DNA from: Chondrosia reniformis | Taxonomy: Eukaryota; Porifera; Demospongiae; Chondrillida; Chondrillidae | NCBI GenBank assembly: GCA_947172415.1 | Contig: OX359199.1 | Location: forward strand, 4,552,001 to 4,616,000 | Length of the DNA stretch: 64,000 bases | Direction of reading: 5' to 3' | Part shown: piece after piece, positions 7,701 through 64,000 of the stretch | How the letters are laid out: each line of letters starts with the position of its first letter | How positions within the stretch are numbered: the stretch's first letter is position 1 | Program-made: the position numbers and the translations under genes | Notes under the pieces: model-generated | Databases searched by the model: none | Told to the model about the DNA's origin: nothing | What the model saw: the letters and a program-made list of their open reading frames with translations, nothing else

Positions 7701-10700
7701 ACATATACAAAGATACAGATATATACATATACAAAGATACAGATATATACATATACAAAGATACAGATATACACATATACAAAAGATACAGATATACACA
7801 TATACAGATATACACATATACACATATACAAAAGATACAGATATACACATATACAAAGATACAGATATACACATATACAAAGATACACATATACACATAT
7901 ACAAAGATACAGATATATACATATACAAAAGATACAGATATACACATATACAAAGATACAGATATATACATATACAAAGATACAGATATACACATATACA
8001 AAAGATACAGATATACACATATACAGATATACACATATACACATATACAAAAGATACAAAGATACACATATACACATATACAAAGATACAGATATACACA
8101 TATACAAAGATACACATATACACATATACAAAGATACACATATACACATATACAAAAGATACAGATATACACATATACAGATATACACATATACACATAT
8201 ACAAAAGATACAGATATACACATATACAAAGATACACATATACACATATACAAAGATACAGATATATACATATACAAAGATACAGATATACACATATACA
8301 AAAGATACAGATATACACATATACAGATATACACATATACACATATACAAAAGATACAGATATACACATATACAAAGATACAGATATACACATATACAAA
8401 GATACACAACTCATAGGTTATCATCGGAAAGCCTAGCAGGTCAATTGATGTGCAAAATAATAAAGACTTGCTCAATCATACCTATATACAATGCAAATCA
8501 GGTCTCTCTATAGTCTACTGTATATCAAAGACAGCACTAAAGGCTACATATGCAAACCTGTGACACAGGTCTTTGGTGCTGGACGGACTCACATTTTTGT
8601 GTACCTCCGATGGTTCCACTGCTATATCCATGTAAACCTGTTCCAGTGAGCCAATTGATTCTACTGTGTTTGTTGCTAGGTTACAAACAGGTCGCATCAT
8701 TCGAGCAGGTGTTGTAAAGAGAAAAAGGCCAGAAAATTGACCTCCTTTAATTGGAGGAATATACCCAATTTCTAAGGTAGATGGAACCTGGAAGATATAT
8801 ATAGCATTTATGCATGCACACTCTCTAATGTAAATTCCTGTACCTTCTCAAGCCCTTTGACTTTCATAAATCTAAGTTGTGTAGCTAACTTGGCGGCCAT
8901 ATTGTAAGAAAGTGTTCCCACTACTCGTCCATCCAGAACAACATGTATAAATGGTTCAGTGTGATGCAATGTGACATCATAAGCTGTCATACCCAGTGAA
9001 GTCAGAAGACTGACCATGTGCTCTGTAGGCAGTTGCTTAGTAATAACCTATATATGTACACGCATACTTAATACATAACACAAACATAAAAATGACTAAA
9101 ATTCATTACTGGTGGGGGGGGGGGGTCAAGGTACGTAGATATATTCCATTACACTTATATCTCAACAACAACTCTATTTCATAAAATGTCTACAGAGGGA
9201 TTGCACAATGGAACTGTGGTAACAATACCTACCCGACAGGGAGCAGCCAGGTGATTAAGCAATCCGCAAGGGGCACCATCTGGAGTGTGGACGGGACAGA
9301 GGAAGCCCCAGGCCTCTGGAAGCAGCTTCCTGACTGAAGTGGTCCTCATTTGACTGAAGAAGGCACCTCGATGAACACAGCGAAAGTGGGAGAGGTAACG
9401 GAAAAAGTTTAGTTTGTCAGCAACCACAGTAAAACCAGATTGCTAGTGGAGACAATCAAGATATCAATACGTACATACATATGCAGCATACAGCAACTAA
9501 CTACGTACTTACTATACAGCAGTGTTATTGCATCGGTACTGGCTGTTAATATCTCTCTTACCTGCTGAAGACTAAGTCCAGATCGTGACTTCAGATTACC
9601 AGTAGCCAGAAAGTATTCCATTTGCTTTCCAACATCTGCCACCTTCCAAGATGCTTTCTCTACAGCTGAACCTACGTAAGTACACGTATATATCTATGTA
9701 GATACAATAAAATGATTACTACTACAGGTAACACTGCAATCCAGATGGTATGTAATATTGTTATTTATCATTTTAATCAGTGTGTGATCAGAAGAGGCAA
9801 GTGAAGTACGTACGTACTGTTATTCCCTTCAAACTTATTTGGGACAGTTTTGGATAGCTTTTCAAGTTCCAATCTAAGAGTCACTAAAAACGTTTCCAAT
9901 TTCTCCTTCAAGACAGCCAGGTACAAGTGACCACCAAGAAGAATCTCCTGGTTCATGGGTGAGTCAGGCGCATCTGGAATACACTCTCCAGACACAAGGG
10001 CAAACAGTTTTCTAATCATTAATCTGTGCAGTAATTGATATACAGTGTCACAGCATACGTATGTATCAAGTTAGTGCTCATGTATAAAACATACATCAAC
10101 ACATTGCACTTGTCAATGTTCCGTGTTACGTGGACACAAACCAATTCTCTGTACATTCAAAATGGAAATACGCACCACACATTACTCAAACCTGTTACTA
10201 CTACTAATATACCTATGTACTTAATAATATATCTTGCTACATCCTCATTGCTGGTAGATTCTGGCAACTCTGCTTTTAATCTGAATCTTTCACCTACATA
10301 TACAATGTACAGCAGTACAAGTATAGTATAGTATAGCACAAGTATAGTATAGTATAGCACAGTACAAGTATAGTACATGTATAGTGGCTATAGATATGTA
10401 CATAAAAAAACAGTATATAGAGTATAAACATAGTAAAAAATACATGTATGTATACGTACGTACATGTCAATCTTGTGACTTACGTATGACATACGTACGT
10501 ATGTAGTTAGTTGTAATACATTCTACTTGTGAGTAGCCTAGCATAGCACATAGCACAGTATATACCTATGTAATTCAGTATTCTCCTCTGACTGGTCAGT
10601 CCAAGCTCTGACAGGTTGTTCAACATGTTTTCAACTCCTCCCTTTACAAAACTGTTGTTTTCTTGTCCTTTAAGTATTGCCATGAAGATGTCCACATCAG

Positions 10701-35313: not shown

Positions 35314-38300
35314 ATGACAGACGTATCAAAGAATGCCGAAATATTAGGCTTTCTAATTAGAAATACCGTGGAAAAGAAGTTTGAGAAGGTAAAATCGCTC
35401 ATCGATAGTTTTCCAAAGAACGTACAAGCGAGAATTATAGACCACAGGAATGAGAGATGGTTTGGCCACACGGCAATGCACTTGGCTGCAGCGGAAGGTA
35501 CTCATCAGATTCTAGATTACCTTGCAGAACACGGAGGTATGCGCTATTCACTTTTCGTAATGAATTAGTGTTGTAAAGAAGGAATCAAAATTACATGTAT
35601 ACGATTGCTTTCTTTGTATTTAGGTGATCCAAACAGAGAATGCTTTGCTTCAGATCTTAGACAAGTAAGTTTTTATACCAAGGCCGCGCGGAATCGCACA
35701 ATAATAGTGTAACGAACTAGTTAGTACACACACAACTGGTCGTGATATACCTAAAGCTTTTAGTCTCCATATTTGGCCCGCCCTGCAATGATTTGCCATA
35801 ACACAATTTGGGTGGCTACTTTACTGTTTGACTGAACAGTAATGGGTTTCCGATACTTAAAAGGCTTTTAAAGCTGCTAAGTGACCAAGGCATAAGGCAT
35901 TTGGACTGACTTTTGAACCTGTCAGAATTATTTGATCAGAAATAACCAATGGGTGTCAGTTTAGGTAGTTACAATAGTATCTAGATGTAATAGTTTTATG
36001 GTGTTCTATAGCTAGGGAGGCATTTGCCACACTTGAAGAAAGTTAAATTGCCAATTTTTGATAACAAACAAACAAACATTAAACTAGGGTTGCCACCTCA
36101 AACGTTCACTATATTGTTGTCCCCCTTGTGATTTAAGGACTTTGTGTTGATTTAGTGACAATCTGGAAGTGGAGTACCACTGATCTATATTCACCCACCT
36201 AGGACTGCTTAGATCATATTCATTTGTCATCAGCTTAGATTGTGTCCTCTAGATTCACCCCTAAATGAGTACACTAGGTGATAATTAAACCACAATTATT
36301 TATACTCTTCTGTATTTTAGACTCCTGTTCACATTGCTGCTAAAAAGGACCACCCCAGGTGTCTACAAGTTCTCCTTGGTCACAGTGGTTCCCTGGCAAC
36401 CTTAGATCAGCAGAGGCGGACCGCAAGGGAACTGGCTAGGGGAAAACCTCAATGTGAAGAAGTTATAAAAGCACATTATGGTAAGTTCTGTAGGTAATTG
36501 TTTGCTTGCTTATCATTAGTAGCATTTCCTCTTCACAGCCAAAACAAGAATTCCAGAAAGGAAGGAAGCTGATGAACAAATAGTGACAAGTGAGTGCAAC
36601 AGTGCACACTATAGAGTTGTATGATGTAATGAGATGTCCCAAAACTCCCCCTGTGGGTAACTAGGTTAAGTGATTCTCTTGCTGGATGAATCCATTTTTA
36701 TGAATATTGCCTGGATCAGCTTTTTTAGCTTAACCCAATCTCTGACACTTGGGCAATCTTTTAATGTCTCACACAATCCTTTTGTATATAAAGTGAAGTT
36801 TAGTATCAACTGTAATAATGTACGTAGCATACGTACACATGTATATAATATGTAGCTGTATAACATATAGCCCATTTCGCATTTCATATTATGCATTTTG
36901 TATGTATATACGTACGTATCATGACTGTGCTGATATAATTGAAATATGTATGTGTTAACTTAGGCCCATGTATACATGTCACTTGCTATTGATGAATATG
37001 AACATACTCCAGCTCATATCTATTACTTTACTGTACCTCTTATACAGGTCTCCATGACTGCTGTAAAGTAGACACTGAAAAGAGCCTTCATGATTTCAAA
37101 AACATATTTCACTATCAGCTTCCCTTAACCTGGCAAGATTTGGGTACTAGGTTCACAGATTTGAAAGACAAGAATGGTTCAGCTGTGACACTACTTTACA
37201 GGTGCCTTTCTTCACAGTCCAACAGTTCAAAATTAACATTATGCTTTCATTATTATACATATGCTGTAGCTTTCATTGTGTATAATATATGAGACTATAT
37301 CAGAACGGTTAGGTAAATAGCCTATAATTTGAACGATAGTAGCTCTTAATTCTTGTGACTCATGGTCCCCAGCAGTGTAGTTATATACTTGTCAAATAGA
37401 TATGGTTTTGAAATTTATCTTTATGTTCATAGGGTTTGTCACCATGGCAACAAGAGAATTCTTGACCACCTGTTGAGTCTTCCTTCAACTTCAGACCCAT
37501 TGGCCAATTTGTCAGATGGCTGTAACCCGCTTCATGCAGCATGCACTCGAAATGACATAGAAACTGCAAGTAAATTACTGAAAAGATGGCCTCAGCTGCT
37601 TCTGCAATCTGAGAATAAGAATGAGCGAAATCCCTTACATATAGCTTGCCATCGCTGTTCTCCTGATATGGTAGCTCTTTTTCTGTCTGTAATCGATGAT
37701 ATTTTATCCAATGGCCACTATACAGAGGACAATCGATTGGATTTAAACATTCCAGATCACTCTGGAAATACACCTCTCCATTTTGCTTGCTGCAATCCAA
37801 AGTGCTTGCAGGTTGTTCCTAAGTTACTTAAATTTAAGCCACAACGAGCTAACTACCACCCAATAGATGTGAATGCAAAGACCACTGATAAGGAACGCAC
37901 TGCCCTTCACATAGCTATATCACGGCACAAATGCAGGGAGTTGCTATCTCTGCTGCTACAGGAAAAAGGGGTGGATATATCCCCAGAAGGTTTTCCTGCC
38001 AAATCAACAGTGGAAAAATTCACTGAGTCCATAGCAGATCTTTCTAAGAGTCCTTACTCAGGACACATAGTTTCGAGGAGTGAGAGCAACTCAACTCCTA
38101 GTGACCTGGCCACACCTACTCCATTAAACATGGATGGTGGCAGCCCCGATGAAGTTGTGGATCCTGGCATGCTTGATGGAGATGAAGAGGAAAGTAAATC
38201 ATGTACAGTGCCCAAACAACCAATGGAAAAGAAAGTATCAAGATTTACTGCTGTGCCCAGTGATGGTGTTCGGATTGACCGGCCCAGAACTAGCACTGAT

Positions 38301-41300
38301 ATCAGTAATGCTGGTGATTTTAAAATTAATCCACTACTTTATCAATTTGAAAATAAATTTGAAGTCCTACTTAAAGGTACTGCCCCAAAAGAAGCAGTCC
38401 CATTTAGTGAGTTGAGTTTGACTCCCCTTGCGGAAGCCTGTGCCATACAGAATGCTGAGGCAGTAGAGGTACTACTGATGAATGGTGCAAAGGATGCCAT
38501 AGGCATTGCTGTTCTTATTCTACAAGCTTTGAAGAACAATTTATTGCTACAGATGCTGCTTAGCTTCCATTCAGAACTTATTCATAAAGATTCAAAGTCC
38601 AGTTCAAGCAAATTGCAACATGAAAAAGTTGGTTTGCAAGTGAAATGGAATAAAATGAAGATAAAGGAAGTGGATTGTTCTTGGCTATCAGAAGAGGCAG
38701 ACTTCCATCCCTTGGGAGAATGTTTTGAAGATGTATCCAGTTTGCGTACCACTATGGAGTGGCATAATCTCCCAAATGTCTCCAGTGATACAATTACTCA
38801 TATTGATTTGAGTAAGAATCTTCTCTCGTCAGATCTCCCAATCGAAATATTCCAACTCCCTCACTTGGAAGAGGTAAACGTAGCTTCTAATGAGTTGAGT
38901 AGGTTACCAATATCCGAGAATCAACCTAATTCCATATTTGGATGGAGATGTTACAGCTTAAAGAAGCTGACATTAGACAACAACCGTTTTGTCAAGCTCC
39001 CACACCATATTTGGTTTTTGCCTCGATTGGAACACCTTTCTGCTAAAAGGAATCAGTTAGTTGCCCTAGACAGGATTGAGAATGTTGATGAACTGTCTTC
39101 AGCTCTGGCTTATGTTGATCTGTCAGAAAATATGCTGGAGTATGTATCAGATTTTCCCTTTCTCCTCCCAAATCTAAAGAAGCTGAACTTGGCTAAAAAC
39201 CAGCTACCCTCGCTCTCACCCACATTATGGAAATGCTTGTCCTTAGAAGAGCTTGACATGTCACACAATAAATTAAGGGATCTCCCCCTCTGTGAGCTGG
39301 AGGCCACTATGGATAATTCGAACACCCAAGCTGTCAATATACCAAAACCTCTGAAGGAGGGTCGTATAATGGTTGGCGCAACAGGTTCTGTTTCAGTGAT
39401 GCAATCACCTGGAATGAATCCTAGATATGGGTCCTATAGGACCACTTGGACAATGTCAAGCAATTATAGAGATGGCCCTACTGCAGAGATCGTTCAGGTG
39501 GATGGCTCATGTTCCCTAAGGATACTTAGGTTGTCCTTTAATCAACTGACCTTCTTCCCTGAGGCCCTGCCATGCTTTACCCCAAGCCTGAAGGAGCTCT
39601 ACATTGATCACAATAAATTTGATCACATTGATGTCAGCTACCTTTCAGACGGTCTGCAGAAGCTTGATGCTAGCCATTGTGAATTGAGCAAGTTTGGCTT
39701 AGCATTACCACTTGTTACGCGAATTGCCCTGAAAACCCGATGCAGGTATCCAGCCAAATTTGGACAAGACTGTATTCACAGAAAGCATCTTGCCTTGTCT
39801 GGCCTAAAATATCTTATCCTCACACACAACAAGATCCAGCACTTTGGGTTTTTAAGGAAAAAGCCATCCAAAGTGTGCCAGCAGCAACAAGAACCTGCAG
39901 CTGCAGTGGAGAAGGATCAGGTTCAGACAGATAGCGCTCCAGGGACTGGTTCAAGTTTATTAGATGTATCTCAGCTAGTAGACTGTGAAAGGGAAGCCTC
40001 AAGCAACACAGGGATAGATGACCTTCTGTTTCCCAAACTCTGCAACTTGGATCTCTCAAACAACAATTTGACTGGACAATTTAGTCCAAATGTTGGCTTC
40101 CATTCCAGTCTACAATCCCTTAAATTAAGCAACAATCCAAACCTGACTCACTTGCCAATAGAACTGGGGTACCTGAAGCGACCAGGCAGGAAGATGGAGC
40201 TGAATTCAATAAAGCTTGATGGGAACAGTAGCCTACAGGACCCTCCAAAGGAATACTGGAACAAGGATATCAGCACGCTGATCCGTTATTTCAGATCAAG
40301 ACTAACCGAGTAAGTTAATCCATGGGACTATTTAAAGTGTTTCATCTTCAGCAACAACAGAATCCATTTAGGTTATCATAAATTGAGAATTAATTAGTAG
40401 ATGTGTACAGATTCTACATTTCCTCCTTGTAGTTCAGTATACAATCGCACTATAAAGCTGATGGTAGTTGGTTATGAAAAAAGAGGCAAGTCCACCCTCT
40501 TGAAGCGCCTGAGAAGAGGAGCAAATGATCCAGATATTGAGAGAACTGAGGGGATAGACATAAGTGATTGGTCCTTTCCAGATTTATACTCCAAGATACG
40601 AAAGTTTTCTCTCTCTGGAGAACCTGTAACCTTTCTGACTTGGGACTTTGGAGGACAAGTACGTATGTATGGTTGAATCTTTTAATGAGTCCCCTGTTGT
40701 TATTTAAGCTCTTAAGCGTTGTGTGCTCTTACTAATGCTTTGTGTGCTCTTACTAATGCTTTGTGTGCTCTTACTAAGCCTTTGTGTGCTCTTACTAAGC
40801 CTTTGTGTGCTCTTATTAAGCCTTTGTGTGCTCTTACTAAGCCTTTGTGTGCTCTTACTAAAGCTTTGTGTGCTCTTAAGCTTTGTGTGCTCTTAAGCTT
40901 TGTGTGCTCTTACTAAAGCTTTGTGTGCTCTTAAGCTTTGTGTGCTCTTAAGCTTTGTGTGCTCTTAAGCTTTGTGTGCTCTTAAGCTTTGTGTGCTCTT
41001 AAGCTTTGTGTGCTCTTAAGCTTTGTGTGCTCTTACTAAAGCTTTGTATGCTCTTAAGCTTTGTGTGCTCTTAAGCTTTGTGTGCTCTTAAGCTTTGTGT
41101 GCTCTTAAGCTTTGTGTGCTCTTAAGCTTTGTGTGCTCTTACTAAAGCTTTGTGTGCTCTTACTAAAGCTTCGTGTGTTATTCCTAAGCAGCTTATTATG
41201 TGCCTTCATATTTGTATTCTGCTTAGGATGACTATTATGTCACTCACCAGTGCTTTTTCTCAAAGAGGTCTCTCTACTTGGTTCTCTTTCGTTTGGATGA

Positions 41301-49850: not shown

Positions 49851-52800
49851 ATGACAAGTATTCCGGATGTGGCAAAGAAATTGGGGTGGTTGATTTGTAC
49901 GTACGGGGATAAGGAGTTGGCGCAGGTTAAGTCGCGTATTAGTACCTTACCAAAGGACATGCAGCTGCGGATTATTAACCACGGTAACGAGTATTGGCAT
50001 GGCCGCACGCTAATGCATTTAGCTGCGTGGAAAGGAGCCTACCACGTCCTAAGCTACCTCGCTGAACACGATGGTAAGATTTAGTGCACCACACGTAATT
50101 CACTCGCTCCTAAATATATTGAGCCGGTTCTATTGTTACTGTTTTATTCTTAAAACTATATATGTGGGTATGCATGCGTTCAATCTACAGGACTTCGTTA
50201 TAAGGGTGCGATCGAGGGGTCGCCACTTCGGTGCTCCCAATTCTGTACCATGCACACCGATGACGTCAAACTACAAGTTAATTTAAGTTTCTGTGTTGAT
50301 AAAGTTGCATATGACGTGGAATTTATAATAATCTTTAGGATTGCAATTGTATACAGACATGACCATGCAAAGTATATAATTTCATTGGGATGGCTTAATC
50401 AATTAAGGATTTGCAAATTATTATTATTTGCCATAAATATTTGTTTTATATATGTATACACAAAGGGGCAACCAAAGCAAATTATATCCCACAATTGCAA
50501 CTGGTGTATAACTATAATAAGAGCCACTATGGCCTCTTATTAATGTGATATCCTGCCGATAACTCAGTAAATGCTTGTGTTATCCTACAAAAATGCAAGA
50601 AAAGCCTAGGGGCAGATCTATAGTGTATAACTATTATACATATATGTAGCCTGCATTGAATATATTATATATATACTAATCTGACTTCTTACTTATATAT
50701 TAGGTGATCCAAACAGAGCTAGTTATGGTCCAGACCTCAAGCAGGTATGACTTTTTGATTTTCAATAATGATTCAACTAAAATATTGATTACCTAATGCA
50801 TGCATGTAGCTAGGTTAAAAAACCTTACACTAAATAAAACCGTGTCCCTCATTTTGGCTACGTATATATACAGTATTAATAACTAAATGTATTACTATAT
50901 AGGTCATATTATTTGCTTCATGATGATCACATGATGATCACATGATCAAGACATGATATTGTCATTGTGGTTGTTAATATTCCTTACAATGTTTTGCTCT
51001 ACAGACATCTGTACACATTGCTGTTTGCAAAGATCACCCAGAGTGCCTAAAAGTTCTTCTTTACCACAATGGCTCTCTTAGCACTCGAAACCTAAATGGA
51101 CTATCACCCATGGATATTGTTAAAGGAAAGTGTAGGGAAGTCGCCCGCTCACATATTGGTTAGTTGACAACTAAGAGATCATATATTTTCTACTGCCCCT
51201 ACTACAATATATACAACTGCACATGCATGCATGCATGTAGAATACTACATAATTACTGTACATGTCTTGTTTCCTCTTTAGACATGGCTAAGAATGGAAA
51301 TGTAGTAGCAAGTGAGTGGATGCATCAGCTAAACAAATATGTACGTAAATGGGATCCAAACTACCCTTGTATTCATCAGCTTATAAAGTGACTTTAAATT
51401 TGTATTCTCGTTCTGTGAATCACATACATATGTATGTATTATGCAGCTATATATAACCCACTTCACATGTATTCATGTACCTTGATTTTGCTGATATTGA
51501 AATATGCATGATATTGTATTACGTAACTTAAAATTATACATGTCACTTGCTATTGATGAATATGAACATACTCCAGCTCATACTATTACTGTACTGTATG
51601 TACCTCTTATATAGGTCTCCATGACTGTTGTAAAGTAGACGCTGAAAAAAGCCTTCATGACTTCAAAAACATATTCCACCATCAGCTTCCCTTAACCTGG
51701 CAAGATTTGGGTACTAGGTTCACAGATTTGAAAGACAAGAATGGTTCAGCTGTGACACTACTTTACAGGTGCCTTTCTTCACAGTCCAACAGTTCAAAAT
51801 TAACATTATGCTTTCATTGTGTATAATATATGCTGTAGCTGTATACTTTAAGATATAGTTTTGAAATTTATCTTTCTGTTCATAGGGTTTGTCACCATGG
51901 CAACAAGAGAATTCTTGACCACCTGTTGAGTCTTCCTTCAACTTCAGACCCATTGGCCAATTTGTCAGATGGCTGTAACCCGCTTCATGCAGCATGCACT
52001 CGAAATGACATAGAAACTGCAAGTAAATTACTGAAAAGATGGCCTCAGCTGCTTCTGCAATCTGAGAATAAGAATGAGCGAAATCCCTTACATATAGCTT
52101 GCCATCGCTGTTCTCCTGATATGGTAGCTCTTTTTCTGTCTGTAATCAATGATATTTTATCCAATGGCCAATATACAGAGGACAATCGATTGGATTTAAA
52201 CATTCCAGATCACTCTGGAAATACACCTCTCCATTTTGCTTGCTGCAATCCAAAGTGCTTGCAGGTTGTTCCTAAGTTACTTAAATTTAAGCCACAACGA
52301 GCTAACTACCACCCAATAGATGTGAATGCAAAGACCACTGATAAGGAACGCACTGCCCTTCACATAGCTATATTACGGCACAAATGCAGGGAGTTGCTAT
52401 CTCTGCTGCTACAGGAAAAGGGGGTGGATGTGTATGCTAAAAGCTTTCCTAGCAGCTCTACAGTAACAAAGTTTACACAAGCTGTTATAAAATGTTCTAG
52501 ATGTCCTTCGCCCACGAGTGTATCACCAAAAGGTAGACGAGGCTCATCTGGTGATGGTGAACAGACAACCTCTCGGCATAATCTGGCCAAGCCAAAAAGG
52601 AATGAACGTTGCTACACTCCTCCTTTGCCTAAAAGGAATTCTAGAATAGCAGCAATCAAAAATGATAGCCAAATAACCAGACATCAGTCAACTCCTGATT
52701 TGAGTAGCTCTGAGTTATATCAATTTAATGCCAGATTGTATTTTCTCAAGAAAGATAGAAGGTTTGAAATATTCTCAGCCAACAAGCCACCCCTAGATGC

Positions 52801-55800
52801 AATACCCTTTAGTAAAGTAAAGCTGACACCCCTTGCTGAAGCCTATGCTTTGGATAATTCTGAAGCAGTTAAACTGCTAAAGAAAGCAGCAACAGATAAG
52901 CCAGAAAGAGACCCTGACTTACTAGAGGATCTTTCATTCAAGTTTTACTCACAGTTTCATGACAGCAATCCCAGTGCACCTAAGAAAAAAGTAAGTTTGC
53001 CCATAAGTGTTTATATGTACATGTGTGTGTACAGTACATTTTGGGTCGGTTGTCCAGACTGGATATTGCAATCGGTAATCGTAAAAGGTTATCATCGCAT
53101 GCATGGTGACGTCATTCTCGTAGGAAAGTTTGTTCAAATGGTAGTTGCGAGTTACTGATTGCAATGTCCAGTCTGGACAACCGACCCAAAAAGTACTGTA
53201 TATATATATATGCATGTAGATGTACACATGCATATATAAGGTCCTGTATATAAGAGGTACTCACATGTTTTATATGCGTTTTAGTAACTATGTTAATTGT
53301 TTGCCATTTCTGTCTTTAGGATGATTGGGTAGGACTATACCACAAAGCAATTGAACGACATGGCTCTATTACCATTAAAGTGATTAGGTGTATCATGACT
53401 GGGCCACCAGAAGTTGGAAAGTCATCCCTCAAGTATCTTCTCATTTTCAATGAATCTAAGGAGGTAAAAATCAGTACTGGAGTTGCAGAAGCTCCGAAAA
53501 TTGTGATTGCTAGCTATTTGGCTGAGGAAAAGAATGCAATTCTCAGCTGGAAACCAGTTGATGACAAAGTAATGGAAAACATAGTCAGGACATGTACAAG
53601 TCAGAAGACATACAAACACAACGTGTCCTATCCAACTCCCCATATGGAGACAGTCCCACCTCAAAAATCAACAACAAAGGCCCCTGAGCAAGGCATTGTA
53701 GTGCCCTTGCCAATCCCAACTGTAACAGTAACAGATTCTCCTGAACCAATCGAGTGCCCTATATTACCTGAACCAGATCATGAGCTGCTATCTCCATTGG
53801 ACCAACTTAAGAGTATACGTGATGAACTCCTTAGTTCAAATGATTTCGGTGATCTGGACCTCAAAGAAGCAACATTTGTTCATTTCATTGATAGCGGAGG
53901 CCAGCCAGCATTTCAGGATTCCCTGCCATTTCTATTAACACTACCATGTACTTACATCCAGGTTTTCAATGCTGCAGAAGACCTTGCAAAGGAAATTGAG
54001 GTATCCTTTCGTTCCGCAGATGGTCAAACCTACACAATTCCATCAGGCCATGGTCTAACAACCATTGCTTTGATGTTAAGATCACTTTCAAGCATATACA
54101 CAGCATCATCCAAGTCTATAGACAAGAGGCTGGGTGAAATTCTAAAACATTCCCCTCAGCTTCGTATGTTCCTTGTTGGAACATTCAAGGATAGGTTGCT
54201 ATCTTTACCTGAATCTGATATGAAAAGAAAAATAGAATCAATGATTGCTAATCTCACTTCTTTAGAGAAAAAGCCATATTATTCTCTGATTGCTGATAAT
54301 GATGCAATTTCCAGAACTAAATTAGCAGAGGTACTTGAGAGGGTCGACAATCCCCCAGCCCCAGTATACTGGCCCTATCTGATAAACAACATGATGACCA
54401 AGCAGAATCAGGTATCCAATGAGGATGCTGAGACCATTGAAGCACTAAAATCAAAGATTTTAAGCAGTCTAGGAAGCCTGGGATCTAAAAACTATTTTGA
54501 GCTTGATATGCCCCTAATGTGGTTTCTCCTTCATGTAATTACAAGTAGGCTAAAGCAGAAATTCCTTAAATATGATCTTTTGAAGCAGTTCTGCATCCAA
54601 AGTCAGTACCTTGATGCAGAAAATGCTGATGATCAATTCCAAGGCATGTTATTGCTCTTACACAAGCTTGGTTTTTATGCCTACTTTGATCTTACTGAAA
54701 AGTCCCGGGAGTGGATATGTACTGATGCCACTGCCTTGTATAATGAAGTTGCCAAGGTTCTGACCATACAGTTCAAGAAGCCATTGCAATTGCATGCGGC
54801 TAAGAGTCGAGAATTCCAGACCACAGGTATATTATCTGTCAACCATCTTGATGTAGTCTTTGACGACTTAGGCATCAGCAAAGATGTCCCAAAAGAATGG
54901 CTACTGGAGATACTGTATCATCTGGGAATATCAGCTAAATACCAGTTAGATCCAGTGGAATATTTCATGCCCTTGGTACTGCCTTATGGAGGGGTGGTAA
55001 TTCCCCAGTGGAATGAAGCCAACATTCTCTGCTTTTCCTACAAATATTCAGGTAGCCATGCTAAGGCTGATCTTATGGATCTTCCTCGAGGCATATTCAC
55101 TTGTCTTGTGGTTCACCTTTCTGAAATGACAAAGAGCCAAATTCTAAAACCAAAACCTAGAGGTAGTGATCGTACCACAGCCTGTTTCTGCTATTTGGGT
55201 ATAGATGTCTATCTGATGGAGGAGCAAGACCGATTAGAACTGCTGCTTGCACACAGTGATGCAGACAAAAGGGGAACTCCCTTTTGCGAGAGAAATTGTC
55301 ATGACATACAATGTCTAGTGAAGTCTACCCTTAAGAATATTGGGTCCAAAGTGATGGAAGGAATGCCTGTGGAAGAGAGACCAGAGCTTCAAGTTGGATT
55401 TCTATGCCACTGTGACTCTGTCAAATCAGCACACCTTGCTCTCTGGGAGAGCAGTCACCCAAGATATCTTGAATGCCAGTTGGGTGGGAAGAGATTAATG
55501 GATTGTTCTGAAAGTGTCTGGTTTCCCGACCAATTTGTACCAACTGACCTAGGTTTAGTTCTGAAGGTGCTAGGCTACAAGCTGTATGCTAATTGGAGAG
55601 ACCTCGGTGTGCAACTTGGTATTGAACCATCAGTGCTTGATGCAGTAGAAAAAAACCAACATTATAAGGTGGAGGACTGCTTCCCAGCAATGATAGAAAG
55701 ATGGCTACTAAAGAAAGTGGGCACAGGCAGGAAGGGGAGGAACTGGAATGTGCTTTTGTATGCCATTGAGGTAGTTGGACCTGAGTCTGTTTATGAGGAA

Positions 55801-56344
55801 ATCAAGATGGATTGTACCATGAAAGGTATGCTATTTGTGCTTAACCTGTACATATGACATGATTAGAAATATTGGTCCTTGAATCAGTGTATACTGGTTA
55901 TTATAATCTGGAACCAAAGTGTTTGTGTGTATATATGTAAAAGCCAAGAACTTATTAAAGATCAAGAAGACCGAGACTCGATCCCAGGGTCACTGATGAA
56001 GGGTGGTATTCCCAGAAACAGCTGTCTGGCCCAGTGGAAAAGAAGCATAATTGTATCCTCACCCATAATTCTATAGGTTTGCCCTAAGTTGTTAGTCTAA
56101 GAAAATTTCTATTCTTTCTGCTTCACGGGCACAATAACCATAGTTTTATGTATTACAGTGAAACCCCTCTAAACTGATTCCAACTACAAAGTTCCATTTA
56201 GAAGGGTGTTCAGATTAGTGAGGTTTCACATGGTACTACTTTAAATATATTTGACTGAAAATGTAATTCGATTGAGTTTGTATCAATTTTTTGTGAGAAT
56301 GCATACCATCAGGAGTTTATTTTTTTATTTTAGGATTTTGTTAA
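49851..56344 (+). CDS. Ankyrin-P-loop GTPase-COR-like-death domain protein, 8 exons, 1407 aa
   Basis: Unnamed ROCO-like signalling protein. Exons 49851-50073, 50704-50744, 51005-51158, 51282-51311, 51615-51768, 51886-52990, 53320-55825 and a terminal 56334-56344 sum to 4224 nt. Residues 1 to about 540 are ankyrin repeats paralogous to LRRK. The GTPase has G1 GPPEVGKSSLKYLL near residue 596, G3 HFIDSGGQPAFQDSLPFLLT near 759 and a weak G4 LVGTFKDRL near 855. A COR-like block starts MPLMWFLLHVI near 965. Residues about 1312-1400 look like a death domain (GYKLYANWRDLGVQLGIEPS, then CFPAMIERWLLKKVG). LRRs, kinase and WD40 are absent. If the last donor is not used, the frame ends at 55857 instead. 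Function unknown; apoptosis-like or immune signalling is inferred from the domains. Confidence 0.85.
51535..52430 (+). repeat. Paralogous near-identical tract, copy B (in the death-domain gene)
   Basis: Partner of 36960-37975. Upstream exons 1-3 of the two genes have diverged to roughly half identity at protein level, and the coding sequence diverges again after 52430, so the tract is an island of much higher identity. Confidence 0.93.
53030..53200. mobile_element. MITE-like element with about 42-bp inverted repeats
   Basis: Left TTTTGGGTCGGTTGTCCAGA and right TCTGGACAACCGACCCAAAA are exact inverted repeats, continuing with small mismatches. In intron 6 of the death-domain gene. Confidence 0.85.
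55970..56035. repeat. Dispersed element fragment with CTGATGA…GAAAC core
   Basis: Partner of 11700-11762. In the last intron of the death-domain gene. Confidence 0.6.
56157..56232. mobile_element. Short pogo-like MITE
   Basis: Ends CAGTGAAACCCCTCTAAACT and AGATTAGTGAGGTTTCAC are imperfect inverted repeats of the type seen in pogo/Tigger elements. No internal coding sequence. Confidence 0.55.
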
Positions 56345-56816
56345 AATGAAGAGTTCATGCAGTGTATGTTGGAGCCAATCATCTAACAATTCCTACAATA
56401 CTGACACACTTAACCTTACACTTATAATATAATTTTCTAGTATCTCTCAGTGCATGCGTGTTGATTTAGCATTAAGGTCAAATCATTATAATGCCTGATG
56501 TACAATATATGTATTCTGAATCAATGACTGCAATCAATAAGAACAAATCAATGTATGTATTGACAATTCATGTACGTAATGTATACATTGATTCATAATT
56601 TAATTATTAAATAGAAAAAGAAAATATTATTCAATTGTGTGTATGCATTGGTAAGGGATAGAGATGAAGCTGAAACTGTTCATCAATTCCTACACTGTAT
56701 AGCTTAGATTTACAGCATTCATAGTCAACAAAAGAAAAAGCTATAATATGCGTACTGTTATATACCTCGCGACGTACGTAGACTACACTTTACCTAGCTG
56801 TCAATTGAGTTTGAAA
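56345..56816. other. Gap upstream of the TIR-TIR-SLOG gene
   Basis: AT-rich; contains the presumed 3' end of the death-domain gene and the promoter of the next. A repeated ATGTATTGACAATTCATGTA-like stretch is visible near 56550. Nothing else recognised. Confidence 0.5.
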
Positions 56817-59345
56817 ATGGCGGAAGGAGAAACCCTAGTTTGTATTGCTATTGCTCCGGAGTTTGGCCTAAAGCCTGTTTACCAACTTGGTACCTTTTTA
56901 TTTAGAAAGGAATTGACGGTAAAGGAAGCAAGAACAGCGTTAGAATCCAGCGATACAACTACAGCTATTCCAAAGAAGTTTCAGTTCCTTTCTCATGATG
57001 GATTTTGCATCGAGTCTTCTTTAGAGGCTAAAGTACCCATCTCTGATATCCTAGTAGGATCTAATTTAATATATGTACGCATTCTATTCGAAAGGACTAG
57101 AATTGGTATAAGATTAAAGGTGAACGAGAATGATTTCTCCTCGATTGGATTTATATTCTGCTCTGCAGCCTGTACCTTGGAAGAGTTCCGAGCCGAGATG
57201 AGGAGTCAACTTACTCATCTTCCCGCCTCTGTTCACTCTGCCGTCCTGCTGGACCACAACCTCTGGCCCGTTGCCAAGCATCAGGAGTGTGATCTCAGCC
57301 TGATGGATGTCTTGATTAATAACGAAATACACATGTTTATGCATCAGGAGTCCAAACACCCAATCCTAAATTCGGAATGGAAACCACCAGATCCAATGGA
57401 CCCAAATCAACATGTAAGCAGCCAAAGCTATCAGAAGAAGCAAAAGCATTCAACCCAGTCCCCAGAAAAAGACCTAAATATTGAAGAAGTGAACTGCTCA
57501 GTGGTTGATACTCTGGAGGCTCAACCTGATCATCCAAGGGAATTTGATGTCTTGATCAGCTATGTACGCATGGAAGCCTCCAACTACGCCACCAAGTTGA
57601 AGGAGGAGCTTGTGGCTTTCGGATTTTCAGTTTTCTTGGACACAGATGAGATTTACAGTGGCCTGGATTGGCAGGACTGCCTTAATGATGCCATCTCTTC
57701 ATGCAAATTGTTTGTAGCCCTGATAACTCCACGCTATGGAGAAACTCTTTGGACAAATAGAGAAATTAAATTGGCTGACATTCTGGCAAAGACTATCATT
57801 CCAATTAATTTCCTCTCCACCTGGCCTCCCAAATGCCTTGCCATCCAATTTGCTACCACCCAGTTTGTTCCCTGGAAGAGAGATAGCAGCCAGGAGGCAT
57901 TAGAGGCTATGGCCTGGGCAGCCAATCAGATTGCAGAGAAGTACAAACATGCCGGAGAGGAAGATGGTCTGAATGGCCCTGAAGTGCACTCTGAGATTAT
58001 AGATAAGGAGACACCTCCACAAAGAACAGTCACACCCCAGCTAGCAAAGGTACCCACCCTACGTAGCTGCCCCACTGCCTTGCCCAATTCTACTGATCAT
58101 GATCTGGTGCAGTTGTTGCGGCAACCAAGAGAGGGCAAGGAGATGGTAGTCTTGATAAGTCATCCTAATGAAGTAGCATTAACACAGAAAACCACTTCCA
58201 TACTCACCAGGGCCGAGTATGAAGTGTGGGAAATGAAGTGTTGCAGCGAGAAAGATAAATCTATAATGAAGTCCTTTCAACAGAAGGCTGATGATGCTGG
58301 AGTGGTGGTTATTTTGATTACTAAGGAATTGGCTTCATCCTCACTTTGCAAGGAGCAGATCTTCTATTGTGAGCAGCGAAAGAGGATTGTTCCAGTGATA
58401 TCAGGCAATATTCAGATGCCCTCCTGGTTGTCAATGCTTATTGGAAGCAATACCTTTGTCCAAGCACAGAGTGCTACTTTTGAGGCATCTCTCAGACAAC
58501 ACATAGAGAAGGCTCTTCATGCAACTTCATCAGAAGAAGAAAGATATGTAAACCCTTCTCAGGAAGATGAAAAAACACGCTTTATGAAGAATAACCTGAT
58601 TGCACAGTTGCCATCCGATGGCAAACATGTGTACATTTCAGGCAGTACTGTCTTCTTCTCTGATAAAGGAGAGGAAATCTGTAAGGAATTGGGGAAGGCC
58701 CTGGCTCAACAACCAGATGTGCTATTGATAACGGGAGGTTTCTATGGTGTGGGTGATACAGTTGGAAAGAGTTTCTATGCTGCTCGTAGAGGCCAAACTG
58801 CCAATGTGTGGCACATCACAGCAGTAAGGGATCCTGCTGATAAATCTGCTCAAACCAGACAGAATGAGGATGGAAGCTTCCAGAAAGTGCCTTATGGGGA
58901 AACAATTTTCATTGGTGACAGTATCAGAGAGAGAGAGGCACTTGTAGCAAAGGTCCTAGGAGTGTGTGTCTTGATTGAAGGAGGCCCTGGTGCTGCTTAT
59001 GAAGCAGAACAGTTTGCATGGAACGGTGGAGTAGTGATACCTGTGAGGGTCACTGGAGGTGCTGCGGAGGGAAATTTCAACACTCCTGATTCCATTTTTG
59101 AGTGTCCATGTACCGTTGATAAGAAAGATTGGGAAACTCTAGGAGACAAAACAGCTGCTCCTGAAGACATAGCTTTGGCCATTGTAAGAATCATACAGAG
59201 CATAACAGGCTCTGGCTGCGGTGTGCCAACTCTGAGACTGAGTCAATCCTTCGTCTCCAGCCAAAGATCTCCAACTGCTCCTAGTTTGAATGGCAGTTGT
59301 CGTAAGAGGAGGTGGTCAAATTCCAACAGTGAAGAGTTGTTATAA
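56817..59345 (+). CDS. TIR-TIR-SLOG (STALD-like) protein, single exon, 842 aa
   Basis: Start at 56817 (AAAATGG context, MAEGETLVCIAIAPEFGLKP); an in-frame ATG at 56748 would add 23 residues. Residues 1 to about 190 look like two diverged copies of one small module (FQFLSHDGFCIESSLEAKVP against SAVLLDHNLWPVAKHQECDL), possibly beta-grasp. TIR 1, about 243-352: FDVLISYVRMEASNYATKLK, SVFLDTDEIYSGLDWQDCLN, TPRYGETLWTNREIKLADIL, with E316 at the position of the NADase glutamate. TIR 2, about 443-560: MVVLISHPNEVALTQKTTSI, ITKELASSSLCKEQIFYCEQ, with E513. SLOG, about 603-805: VYISGSTVFFSDKGEEICKE, LLITGGFYGVGDTVGKSF (GGxxGVG), RERE near 705 and GGPGAAYE at 722-729, the nucleotide-binding signature of LOG/SLOG proteins. 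In bacteria TIR plus SLOG form Thoeris. The role in this animal is inferred, not shown. Confidence 0.88.
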   Translation: MAEGETLVCIAIAPEFGLKPVYQLGTFLFRKELTVKEARTALESSDTTTAIPKKFQFLSHDGFCIESSLEAKVPISDILVGSNLIYVRILFERTRIGIRLKVNENDFSSIGFIFCSAACTLEEFRAEMRSQLTHLPASVHSAVLLDHNLWPVAKHQECDLSLMDVLINNEIHMFMHQESKHPILNSEWKPPDPMDPNQHVSSQSYQKKQKHSTQSPEKDLNIEEVNCSVVDTLEAQPDHPREFDVLISYVRMEASNYATKLKEELVAFGFSVFLDTDEIYSGLDWQDCLNDAISSCKLFVALITPRYGETLWTNREIKLADILAKTIIPINFLSTWPPKCLAIQFATTQFVPWKRDSSQEALEAMAWAANQIAEKYKHAGEEDGLNGPEVHSEIIDKETPPQRTVTPQLAKVPTLRSCPTALPNSTDHDLVQLLRQPREGKEMVVLISHPNEVALTQKTTSILTRAEYEVWEMKCCSEKDKSIMKSFQQKADDAGVVVILITKELASSSLCKEQIFYCEQRKRIVPVISGNIQMPSWLSMLIGSNTFVQAQSATFEASLRQHIEKALHATSSEEERYVNPSQEDEKTRFMKNNLIAQLPSDGKHVYISGSTVFFSDKGEEICKELGKALAQQPDVLLITGGFYGVGDTVGKSFYAARRGQTANVWHITAVRDPADKSAQTRQNEDGSFQKVPYGETIFIGDSIREREALVAKVLGVCVLIEGGPGAAYEAEQFAWNGGVVIPVRVTGGAAEGNFNTPDSIFECPCTVDKKDWETLGDKTAAPEDIALAIVRIIQSITGSGCGVPTLRLSQSFVSSQRSPTAPSLNGSCRKRRWSNSNSEELL

Positions 59346-59518: not shown

Positions 59519-59600
59519 CGCAGTGAGCAGGATTCGAACCTGCGCGGGCAGAGCCCATTGGATTTCGAGTCCAACGCCTTAACCACTCGGCCATCACTGC
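59519..59600 (-). tRNA. tRNA-Ser (anticodon CGA), 82 nt
   Basis: On minus: acceptor stem GCAGTGA pairs with TCACTGC plus discriminator G. The A-box reads TGGCCGAGTGG. Anticodon stem TTGGA/TCCAA encloses loop CTCGAAA, so the anticodon is CGA (codon UCG). The long variable arm GGGCTCTGCCC is typical of type II tRNA-Ser. B-box GGTTCGAATCC. No intron and no encoded CCA. Confidence 0.97.
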
Positions 59601-60680: not shown

Positions 60681-63639
60681 TTAGTACATGAAAATAAATG
60701 GACTGAAACAAGCTTTAGAGCTGTGCAGAATATTTACTTGTTTCTGTGTCACTTCAGGCTCCCAGTGTGTTGAAAGGACTACAGATGCATAGCTCATCCT
60801 ATCCCTACTTGACATCTGAGCAACGATTTTTCTTTCTGCAACTTCTTGACTCACTCCATCACGCTCCATTATTCTTTTCAAAGCCTAAAGTTTCAAGATA
60901 ATGTTATATTTTTTCTTCTCACATCAAGACACCTGTTGCCATGTCAACAGAATACAGTAAACTTTAATCATACATTTCCTAACCTCCTTCTGTGATAGAA
61001 TACACAGCCAGACTTCGTGACAATACCTATCCCACTCTGCCTCCAGTAATACTGCAGCATCCAGGACACATACCTTACAACCTGTATACAACACATCCAG
61101 ACTCAAATGACGACAATATCAAAGCTTTAAGATCAGCTTTAGATCTTAAAGCCCCCCCCCCCCCCCCCCCATTTCATGTAGAATACTTTGCAATGTGAAT
61201 TTCAACCTTCTTTCCATGCCTGACTGATCCTGTCAAAAGATAGCTGTCTTATTTCTGGCCAAACTATGTCAGTAAGTTTCTTCATTTCGTTCTAATGGAT
61301 GCACATTAACCAGAGTCTTATTGTAACCAGGCAACATGTCACATGATATGATGTACCTTATCCTTTAGGACTATCGGGCCAAGTATCTTCCTATTGATCC
61401 GTCCATCCTCCCCCACAATTACGGGCCCAAAACAGTCTACCACCTTAGTGTAGGCTGTCGTACCAGGCTCATAGGCTGCGTGACCCAACTAATAGGGAAC
61501 ATTGGAAGGGACTCAACTACCATTTCAGTAATTTTTTTGAAAATAATAATGAAAGACAAAACAATGATTTACAGTCTAGCAATCCTACCAAAATGGCTGC
61601 CAATTAGTTACCTTGTCACAATCAATCACATGTGCTCCCAAGCCAGCCAACCTTCTACACACAGAACTCTTTCCACTGGCAATCCCCCCAGTCAGGCCAA
61701 TTATAAAGGGACCATCTTTCTTCCAATGAGAGGTCCTGTTGGTGTCAGGTGATCTCAATTCACCAAGCATATTCTGCCTGATTTGGGTGGAACTGAGTTT
61801 GGCTGCCACCATTTCAGTGAGTCCTCCCTCAAAGGCTACCATATCAACACACTCAATGTGCATCTCCGGGAGACCCTAGTAAACATAGGAACACGATATT
61901 GTAACTAATAAATGATTAATGATTAATGTGTGGCACAATAAAATTGTGATCGTATCATATTAGAGACACTGAAAGATGAACCATCTCAAAGATAAGTTGG
62001 GTGCAGAAATCCCTATCATCTGCAGGGTTTCTTTCGGGGGGAAGGGGGCAGAGGGGGAAATGTGCCCCCCCTTGAAACATTTGTGCCCCCCCTTGAAAAT
62101 GACAAATGTTATATGCTATATACGTACGTATATGAACATTGGTGCACTAAATATGTTTGCCCCCCTTCATTTCTATTATCATCATTTTGCCCTCCCCCCC
62201 TTGCTAAATACTCTGACTGATCTGCATGTCACTGCATTGGTCAGCAACTAAACAATACATATCAATGTCAATTAATTAGAGCAACTAATTGTAGGAACTT
62301 ACTCTTTTCTTCCTCTCCTGGTTTACAGCTTCACTTCCTTTGGAAGAGTCAGCAGTGATCACCAAACAGTCTAGCCCTGCGTCCCAGGCTGTAGGACCAT
62401 ACACATCTGTTATGGGGACCACATCAATCTGCACTTCTGGCCGCACATCCTGCAGAAAGCCCTTCACAGCTGCTATTCGCTTGTCAAGAGGTTCAATCAG
62501 TTCAGCGAGTGTCTTGTTCACTAGTAGTGGACCATCTGCTATACCAACTAATATACACCAGAATAATTGAAGTGATAATTAAACCACAAGTAATTATAAA
62601 CAGGAAAGAAGGAATTATTGGGAATCAAAACGAGGACAGCTGGTAAGACCACCAGTGCTCTGCGATGCGATATCATTTATGGTTGCTAAAATGTTTATTA
62701 TTATGCATGTGCAGTAGTGTGGAGTAAGTATTTACAACAAAACGTTAAATTTAATGGACACTAATAAGTCATATACGGTAAAACGCTAAATATAATAGAT
62801 GTTAATATTAAGGGTTTTACAGTACATTCTGAAAATAAAACTACTAATTTTAGTGTTATCAGTATTGATGAGGTAGCCTGGCTGATTGGGATATACTATA
62901 CATATGTACATGCAAATAAAGGGTGCTTATTATACTATATACTGAGGTATATACAGATAGGTGATAGATGAGTGGTCAGGTGTGGGAAGACAGAGAAACA
63001 CGCAAGGACTCAAAATGATGTATATTAGAATATTCATGAAGGCAGCTAAATAGATTCTGGTGGTACAATTGTCTTACTTAGAATACGTTTTCTTGCTATT
63101 AGTATGCTTTGAGACAGAAAAAGGCGATGTCCGTTGTGAAAGTGGTCAAATGTACCTCCTACAGCCACTCCATTGAAGCACTTTCTATCGCTTTCCTCTG
63201 TTACCGGTTCATTCTTGCCATCTACTTCAAGGTCCAGTTTGATGATGGATGGACGCGGGACCAATACTGGTTGCCTCTGCAGTATTAACTTGTATACAGG
63301 CAACGTTTCCGGGTCCTTGGTGGAATGAGCAACAAATACAGTTTCTACGGCATGACTCAATTTTTCACTTGGTTCCTTTGGCGGGCTAGAGGAATGCAAC
63401 AATGGCCTCAAGTCGACAGTAACGGCGTGCTTTGACGATAGACTATACAGGGATGTAATACATCTGGACACGGAGGACAACGAAAGCTGATGTTTAAAAT
63501 CACTGATACTATTTTCACAAACCAAAGGAACGTATAATATTCCGTTTACATGAGAGGAAATACTTTGTATCAGCTGCGGAGTCATTGAAAACAAATGAGC
63601 TGTGTTTTCCATTACTAGAGCAGCTGATCGGGCGGCCAT
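60681..63639 (-). CDS. COASY: Bifunctional coenzyme A synthase (COASY), 7 exons, 529 aa
   Basis: Carries the last two steps of CoA synthesis: phosphopantetheine adenylyltransferase (PPAT) and dephospho-CoA kinase (DPCK). Exons 63078-63639, 62303-62547, 61612-61875, 61357-61488, 61207-61291, 60984-61081 and 60681-60884 sum to 1590 nt. PPAT shows VAVGGTFDHFHNGHRLFLSQ (nucleotidyltransferase TFDxxHxGH). DPCK shows the P-loop FIIGLTGGIASGKSSVCRRL, GAHVIDCDKLGHAAYEPGTT, VCVLDAAVLLEAEWDRYCHE and RIMERDGVSQEVAERKI. The start at 63639 gives MAARSAALVMENTAHLFSMT; a second ATG nine codons on is possible. The C-terminus after VTQKQ differs from the family, and a GTAAAT donor there may lead to another exon. 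Its start nearly touches that of the plus-strand neighbour. Confidence 0.94.
61110..61172. repeat. Repeat fragment with 19-bp poly-C run
   Basis: AAGCTTTAAGATCAGCTTTA, GATCTTAAAGCCC, then cytosines to 61170. The wording recurs near 14484-14515. In a COASY intron. Confidence 0.7.
61965..62215. repeat. Dispersed repeat with G/C-rich runs
   Basis: Begins with the GAACCATCTCAAAGATAAGT flank shared with 43250 and 44730, then TGCCCCCCCTTGAAA tandem stretches resembling 14225-14290. In a COASY intron. Confidence 0.55.
62563..62672 (-). mobile_element. tRNA-derived SINE, copy 4
   Basis: Tail AATTGAAGTGATAATTAAAC, body GGGAATCAAAACGAGGACAG, head CAGCTGGTAAGACCACCAGT. The 5' end is lost after GCTCTGCGATGC. 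In a COASY intron. Confidence 0.65.
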
Positions 63640-63652
63640 TTTTGCAATTAAA
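63640..63652. promoter_or_regulatory. 13-bp interval between divergent COASY and VPS41-like start codons
   Basis: If both starts are right (63639 on minus, 63653 on plus), each 5' leader must run over the other gene's coding start, so the transcription start regions overlap. Geometry only; no promoter motif is claimed. Confidence 0.5.
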
Positions 63653-64000
63653 ATGGCGACTGCAAATAATACCCTGGAAGATGAGCTCAGTAATCCCTCT
63701 GTAGAGGAGGAAGAAGATGAAGAAGAAGAAGAATCAGAAGACGAGGAGCCCATTTTTAATTACAAGAGATTTAGTGAGGATCTTGTCAAAGGTCTAGGTC
63801 CGCCCAAAGATGCAAATCTACAGAACTTTCGCGGAATTGCTGTGGAACTGATCAGCTGTATTGCAGTCCACATGAGAGTATGTTGTGAATAATGCTGTAT
63901 ATATGTATGTAGTTATATAGCTGTGCGTGTAATTTTAACGATATAAGTGACCCATGTGATAAGCACACTAGGTAGACTACACACTAGGCTAGACTACACA
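63653..64000 (+). CDS. VPS41-like N-terminus (gene runs off the right edge)
   Basis: The start at 63653 gives MATANNTLEDELSNPSVEEE, a long acidic run, then EEPIFNYKRFSEDLVKGLGP and ELISCIAVHMR before a GTATGT donor at about 63878. VPS41 (HOPS subunit in late endosome-lysosome fusion) begins with the same pattern: an acidic stretch, EEPxxxYER, and SCxxVHxxF opening the beta-propeller. Only exon 1 is in the window, and the stretch KGLGPPKDANLQNFRGIAVE is not typical of VPS41, so the call is tentative. Other acidic-N-terminal WD40 proteins are possible. Confidence 0.5.

Follow-up and report, generated by a model that had tools for sequence, protein, structure and literature searches.

Two TIR domains and a SLOG domain in one animal polypeptide: a conserved protein family represented in the sponge Chondrosia reniformis

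INTRODUCTION

In bacteria, signals that TIR domains make from NAD are read by SLOG domains, and the SLOG domain of ThsA is reported to bind TIR-made cyclic ADP-ribose (cADPR) isomers (PMC10022894, PMC11204291). The pocket of this domain is given as Ser288, Phe357, Arg371, Lys388 and Glu403 (PMC7272460, PMC10022894). Among animal SLOG proteins, TRPM2 was seen with ADP-ribose (ADPR) bound, its R358 contacting the ADPR phosphates (PMC6759353); human TRPM channels are described as having SLOG-like domains, and a response of calcium channels to SARM1 products has been raised as a question (PMC11025887). A paper on TRPM evolution credits the definition of SLOG to Burroughs et al. 2015 (PMC13143021).

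The pairing of TIR with SLOG is already known, as STALD owes its Pfam name to an association with Sir2 and TIR. ThsA combines Sir2 with SLOG, and SARM1 combines a metabolite-sensing ARM domain with TIR; active TIRs operate as oligomers.

Here we describe a gene of the sponge Chondrosia reniformis whose product carries both kinds of domain. It lies in a stretch of 64,000 nt (C11:4552001-4616000, hereafter ‘the window’) of a genome that spans 117,379,552 bases over 15 contigs. What is new is the animal architecture, built from known kinds of domain. A literature search over titles and abstract openings found no description of an animal TIR-TIR-SLOG family, an earlier mention being possible; the family is apparently old and unstudied in animals. 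It would add a new architecture for the control of TIR NADases, among them the axon-death enzyme SARM1, and with one recombinant protein it makes TIR-SLOG nucleotide signalling in animals directly testable.

RESULTS

The gene and its surroundings

The TIR-TIR-SLOG gene is real, intact and conserved across animals. Its open frame extends from 56703 to 59345, and translation from the ATG at 56817 yields the protein described in Table 1; for random codons with the GC content found here, the chance of 842 open codons is ~1e-21. The MAE opening of the Chondrosia protein recurs in 3 of the 12 homologues inspected, and most others start nearby. In the 117.4 Mb genome the gene was found at full length once: a full-length paralogue was rejected, the sole other protein match being a TIR stretch on contig C7 (34% over residues 244-332). 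The genome's best TIR_2 match (E 1.1e-17) is a 206-aa TIR frame on C7 (L005:1399-2019), in which SEL, by eye, lies close to the place of the glutamate.

The order TIR, TIR, SLOG had been proposed in a sequence-only reading of this DNA, and it stands in both sequence and fold. That reading missed the wide spread of the architecture in animals as well as two N-terminal ubiquitin-like domains (UBLs). The N-terminus of the Chondrosia protein models as UBL folds; this stretch had no Pfam match at E <= 1, and the UBL profile had none in the PDB sequence search. Comparison by fold with tandem UBL proteins (OASL, ISG15, USP7 and linear di-ubiquitin) gave low TM-scores by query (0.27-0.50), as the halves are placed differently or fit loosely. 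Unlike in those proteins, the Chondrosia pair is fused to TIR and SLOG domains. Two further short stretches, both outside the domains, seem conserved by eye: an LRSCPTALP-like motif between the TIRs (residues about 411-425) and, in some relatives, the basic RKR.WS close to the C-terminal end (about 829-834).

Upstream of the gene, the window contains an ankyrin-repeat frame followed by one with matches, both below cut-off, to COR-A (E 0.004) and, in a single search, to Death (E 0.12) (51839-55857), and, farther upstream, an ankyrin-LRR frame of 984 aa (37359-40313). They are possibly ROCO/DAPK-like genes beside the TIR gene. The tandem array in Table 1 explains six long overlapping frames, three per strand. 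The minus-strand pieces at 61585-61863 and 63049-63759, with the P-loop, are perhaps exons of a CoA synthase-like gene.

Table 1. Features of the window and, in the last line, of a LOG-containing gene elsewhere in the Chondrosia genome
Feature	Position	Strand	Basis or remark
Coding sequence UBL-UBL-TIR-pseudoTIR-SLOG (domains as predicted)	56817..59345	+	single open frame, 842 aa + stop
Ubiquitin-like domain 1, residues 4-90	56826..57086	+	predicted model
Ubiquitin-like domain 2, residues 92-178	57090..57350	+	predicted model
TIR1, putative NADase, residues 242-385	57540..57971	+	
WTNRE motif with putative catalytic E316	57750..57764	+	59/59 rows
TIR2, probable pseudo-TIR, residues 443-567	58143..58517	+	TIR_2 alone, E 8.9e-6
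E513-Q514, place of the NADase glutamate in TIR2	58353..58358	+	column counts, profile alignments
SLOG domain, residues 603-798	58623..59210	+	
GGFYGVG nucleotide-loop motif, residues 640-646	58734..58754	+	conserved glycines
R706, conserved pocket arginine	58932..58934	+	R 141/147, K 5/147
E729 of GGPGAAYE, conserved pocket glutamate	59001..59003	+	E 139/147
tRNA-Ser (CGA)	59519-59600	-	directly behind the TIR gene
Tandem array, periods 8, 24, 146	7246-8408		
Frame with GLTGGIASGKSS (P-loop)	61585-61863 and 63049-63759	-	weak CTP_transf_like match, E 0.0058, below cut-off
Adenosine deaminase-LOG fusion, 541-aa frame	L003:424-2049 (C12:277208-280579)		PF00962, E 1.1e-82

Relatives and their distribution

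At E <= 1e-3 we found 136 relatives in a first search (best 120 of 136 considered) and 166 in an alignment search (best 120 of 166), each of which scored only roughly 8,000 candidates sharing most words with the query. A search with SLOG only gave 53 proteins within its length limits, all 53 with TIR_2. The main conservation set (n = 147) consists of the Chondrosia protein and 146 others from the whole-protein, SLOG-only and alignment searches; the motif counts below refer to the same 147, with the database copy of the Chondrosia protein (P0001) standing for it. Gene-model quality differs between rows of this set. Identity to the Chondrosia protein is 32-48% in alignment A1. The relatives are labelled uncharacterized, hypothetical, unnamed or TIR domain-containing, and one (P0054) is labelled a predicted Rossmann-fold nucleotide-binding protein.

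The listed names belong to what we take to be Porifera, Placozoa, Echinodermata, Hemichordata, Mollusca, Annelida, Nemertea, Priapulida and chelicerate Arthropoda. Among the listed matches that carry names, none is from a chordate, insect, nematode, cnidarian or bacterium, which is not proof of absence. Similarly, tblastn of bacterial and archaeal contigs, queried with both the SLOG and the full alignment (two short patterns each), gave no relative, absence again not being proven; against plasmids, tblastn of SLOG gave three matches with E 0.07-0.09 over half of the query. For one EukProt transcript (P0095) a choanoflagellate source was rejected, since its 65% identity to Oscarella lobularis P0136 points to a homoscleromorph sponge as the probable source.

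In a midpoint-rooted tree of 48 chosen sequences, Chondrosia included, the Chondrosia clade joins two homoscleromorph sponges (support 0.88), which supports a sponge origin of the gene. Echinoderms, hemichordates, chelicerates, molluscs, nemerteans and the two homoscleromorphs each group together; two annelids are separate, the support for Trichoplax is low (0.17) and several deep nodes are weak. Such grouping favours, without proof, old vertical inheritance over repeated transfer. Local duplication is hinted at in some relatives, e.g. P0043 and P0064, both on contigs of 300,724 bases.

First TIR domain

The sequence-only reading had placed E316 at the position of the NADase glutamate, and this residue is conserved in the larger sets. 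The stretch W312-T313-N314-R315-E316 does not vary in the smaller alignment of 59 rows (the Chondrosia row included), and W[TS]N[RK]E is found in 145 of the 147 sequences. The two exceptions are P0129, with K replacing E316, and P0143, whose gene model is without the WTNRE stretch; P0100, on an equally long contig, has the motif. P0079 is misaligned in the 147-row column counts yet carries it. In an alignment of TIR1 to SARM1, E316 falls on the glutamate of WVHKE, presumably the catalytic E642 of SARM1; the title of PDB entry 7cm7 (E642A) agrees. The NADase-type glutamate is thus present in TIR1 as it is in Thoeris ThsB and in SARM1-family TIRs, and V250 stands where SARM1 has an arginine in the SYRR stretch.

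The best NCBIfam model for TIR1 was the Thoeris type III ThcB4 TIR (E 7.7e-18), with 64.5 bits for this domain versus a full-length cut-off of 220. At the level of >=95%, TIR1 also shows the highest proportion of strictly conserved columns, 48 of 144. From its sequence, we regard TIR1 as a putative NAD+-cleaving domain.

Second TIR domain

The second domain, judged by its sequence, is a TIR as well. TIR_2 is matched by this domain in 15 of the 15 rows given, and profiles of TIR1 and TIR2 match each other with E 5.7e-5 (probability 66%) in one direction and 3e-4 (40%) in the reverse. Strands and helices alternate in its predicted model; the list of fold matches for the whole-protein model mainly covers TIR1 and SLOG. 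A PDB sequence search with the TIR2 profile gave as best row 2lr0 (u31393, a ‘P-loop ntpase fold’ beside designed proteins; E 0.02), with a Toll-like receptor chimera at E 0.029.

E513 had been read as a second glutamate at the NADase position. We rejected it as a catalytic residue: glutamate is rare at position 513 (9/147, and 6/59 in the smaller alignment), where glutamine prevails (125/147), and both TIR1-TIR2 profile alignments pair E316 with Q514, a position with Q in 125 and E in 11 of the 147. The TIR2 pattern was readable in 141 of the 147 sequences. Since the glutamate place is changed in most sequences and E513 of Chondrosia is the minority state, catalysis by TIR2 is unlikely, and the domain has probably lost activity.

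SLOG domain

Residues 603-805 might have turned out to be an unrelated Rossmann enzyme; what we found is a SLOG fold with the GGxxG and GGxGxxxE loops of the SLOG superfamily. The fold match runs end to end, from residues 603-798 to residues 283-476 of ThsA. The Pfam STALD score of the Chondrosia protein (17.5) is under the cut-off of 24, while that of its relative P0049 (29.3) is above. Genome searches for the STALD and LSDAT_euk families had no match in Chondrosia and none in control genomes either, and are thus uninformative. With the Chondrosia SLOG as query, a structure-sequence search at E <= 10 gave three distinct matches, all TRPM2 (E 0.027-0.028); for the family profile TRPM2 was at E 0.094, level with an unrelated dehydrogenase (0.10), and the P0049 SLOG had no match in the PDB sequence search.

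The nucleotide loop is highly conserved (G640 145/147, G641 147/147, G644 146/147, G646 125/147). R706 and E729 are both kept in 134 of the 147 rows, in 131 of these 23 residues apart. The end-to-end fold correspondence suggests, at the level of predicted models, that S608 (S in 105/147) stands for ThsA Ser288, and R706 and E729 for Arg371 and Glu403. The spacing differs: 23 in the animal SLOG versus 32 by the ThsA residue numbers given in PMC7272460. E729 is absent from 8 and R706 from 6 of the 147 rows; the SLOG pocket looks changed in some lineages though TIR1 is kept. Within the family the pocket is conserved, yet its ligand is not readable from sequence.

DISCUSSION

Possible mechanisms

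We tentatively favour, at a chance a little short of even, a cytosolic switch in which TIR1 would act as a NADase controlled by the SLOG domain. TIR1 would cleave NAD+ through the SARM1-like glutamate E316; SLOG would bind an NAD-derived nucleotide, either ADPR or a cADPR isomer, and would control TIR1 within the same chain or oligomer. The catalytically dead TIR2 would help assembly, a role proposed because active TIRs work as oligomers, and the two UBLs would recruit partners and place the protein in a larger complex. The switch may be likened to ThsA with TIR in place of Sir2, or to a SARM1 whose ARM sensor is exchanged for SLOG. A TIR NADase under in-chain SLOG control would be the most economical model. 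The largest share of conserved columns, together with the few relatives that lose the SLOG arginine or glutamate and keep TIR1, suggests that TIR1 carries the output. The sequence-only reading held that the output must be another protein; this does not follow, because a TIR NADase may act as the effector, as SARM1 does. Against the switch stand the R706/E729 spacing, which is that of a LOG domain and differs from that of ThsA, the rows without E729 or R706, V250 and the position of TRPM2 R358 on G748 (see below), and fold likeness does not show function.

A SLOG-gated TIR NADase, a TIR with a SLOG nucleosidase, and a producer and sensor in one chain all fit the same data. The last of these, put forward in the sequence-only reading and considered unlikely by us, would have TIR1 make a cADPR-type signal that SLOG, in its own or an adjacent molecule, senses as positive or negative feedback, a partner protein being the output. 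Both domain types with conserved key residues occur in one chain, and the SLOG of ThsA, of the same fold, binds TIR-made cADPR isomers as reported in the two sources cited at the outset; on the other side, the loss of NAD through TIR1 could be the output in its own right.

Rather improbable is a SLOG that works as a LOG-like N-glycosidase, cutting between adenine and ribose in the TIR1 product or in AMP-type nucleotides and so limiting or changing the signal. Degradation of cADPR by N-glycosidase action has been proposed for viral SLOG domains (PMC9503650). The Chondrosia genome has a purine deaminase-LOG fusion (last line of Table 1), with a C-terminal LOG domain (PF03641, E 1e-8) containing PGGVGTLGE; the spacing of R and E in this domain is the same as that of R706 and E729, and GGPGAAYE can be put in register with PGGVGTLGE by eye, though the automatic local alignment did not place the two domains so.

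That the protein is only a scaffold, with adaptor-type TIRs, a structural or ligand-independent SLOG, and UBL and TIR contacts building complexes as MyD88 does, has little chance: the TIR2 glutamate is gone in most sequences, UBLs suggest protein-protein contacts and animal Toll-like receptor TIRs are described as acting through direct protein contacts (PMC10022894), but the near-invariance of the TIR1 motif is what one expects for an active site, and less clearly for a scaffold.

We also put forward, as a wider and more doubtful idea, a one-protein NAD-nucleotide circuit kept by animals from close to their origin, in which TIR1 would write an ADPR-type signal, SLOG would read or destroy it, and the pseudo-TIR and UBLs would link it to ubiquitin-based immune or death signalling. 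If true, bacterial Thoeris would have a counterpart in animals, one possibly lost in chordates, insects and nematodes; these groups are missing from the listed names, which is no proof of loss.

Comparison with known systems

LOG and PpnN nucleosidases and TM1055 (1rcu) have GxGT, whereas the Chondrosia SLOG has GxGA (GPGA) and is part of a TIR protein. PF03641 (LOG) had no match in the Chondrosia protein at E <= 1; in the genome only the fusion gene on C12 matched.

The TRPM2 chanzyme is also matched by fold to the Chondrosia protein, and both SLOG domains have an ER and an EGGPG stretch. In the ungapped alignment, however, TRPM2 R358 falls on G748 of the Chondrosia SLOG, and R302 is outside the aligned stretch. 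The Chondrosia protein had no Pfam match to a TRP channel domain at E <= 1 and no clear TM segment.

The likeness to Thoeris put forward in the sequence-only reading holds for the parts, in fold and in sequence, and fails for the system. In Thoeris, thsA and thsB are distinct genes of a single prokaryotic locus, whereas here there is one animal polypeptide; Thoeris ThsA comes with a Sir2 or TM-macro effector, and the animal protein is without one and has a probable pseudo-TIR and two UBLs in addition. The same reading had noted that a Sir2 or transmembrane part was missing, and rightly so: Sir2 and macro had no Pfam match at E <= 1 and no TM segment was clear. With neither such an effector nor separate genes, this is not a Thoeris system.

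Pfam at E <= 1 gave neither ARM repeats nor a SAM pair. SARM1 and TIR-1 have ARM and SAM; the Chondrosia protein has SLOG and UBLs instead, together with a second, degenerate TIR and V250 in the place of the SARM1 arginine.
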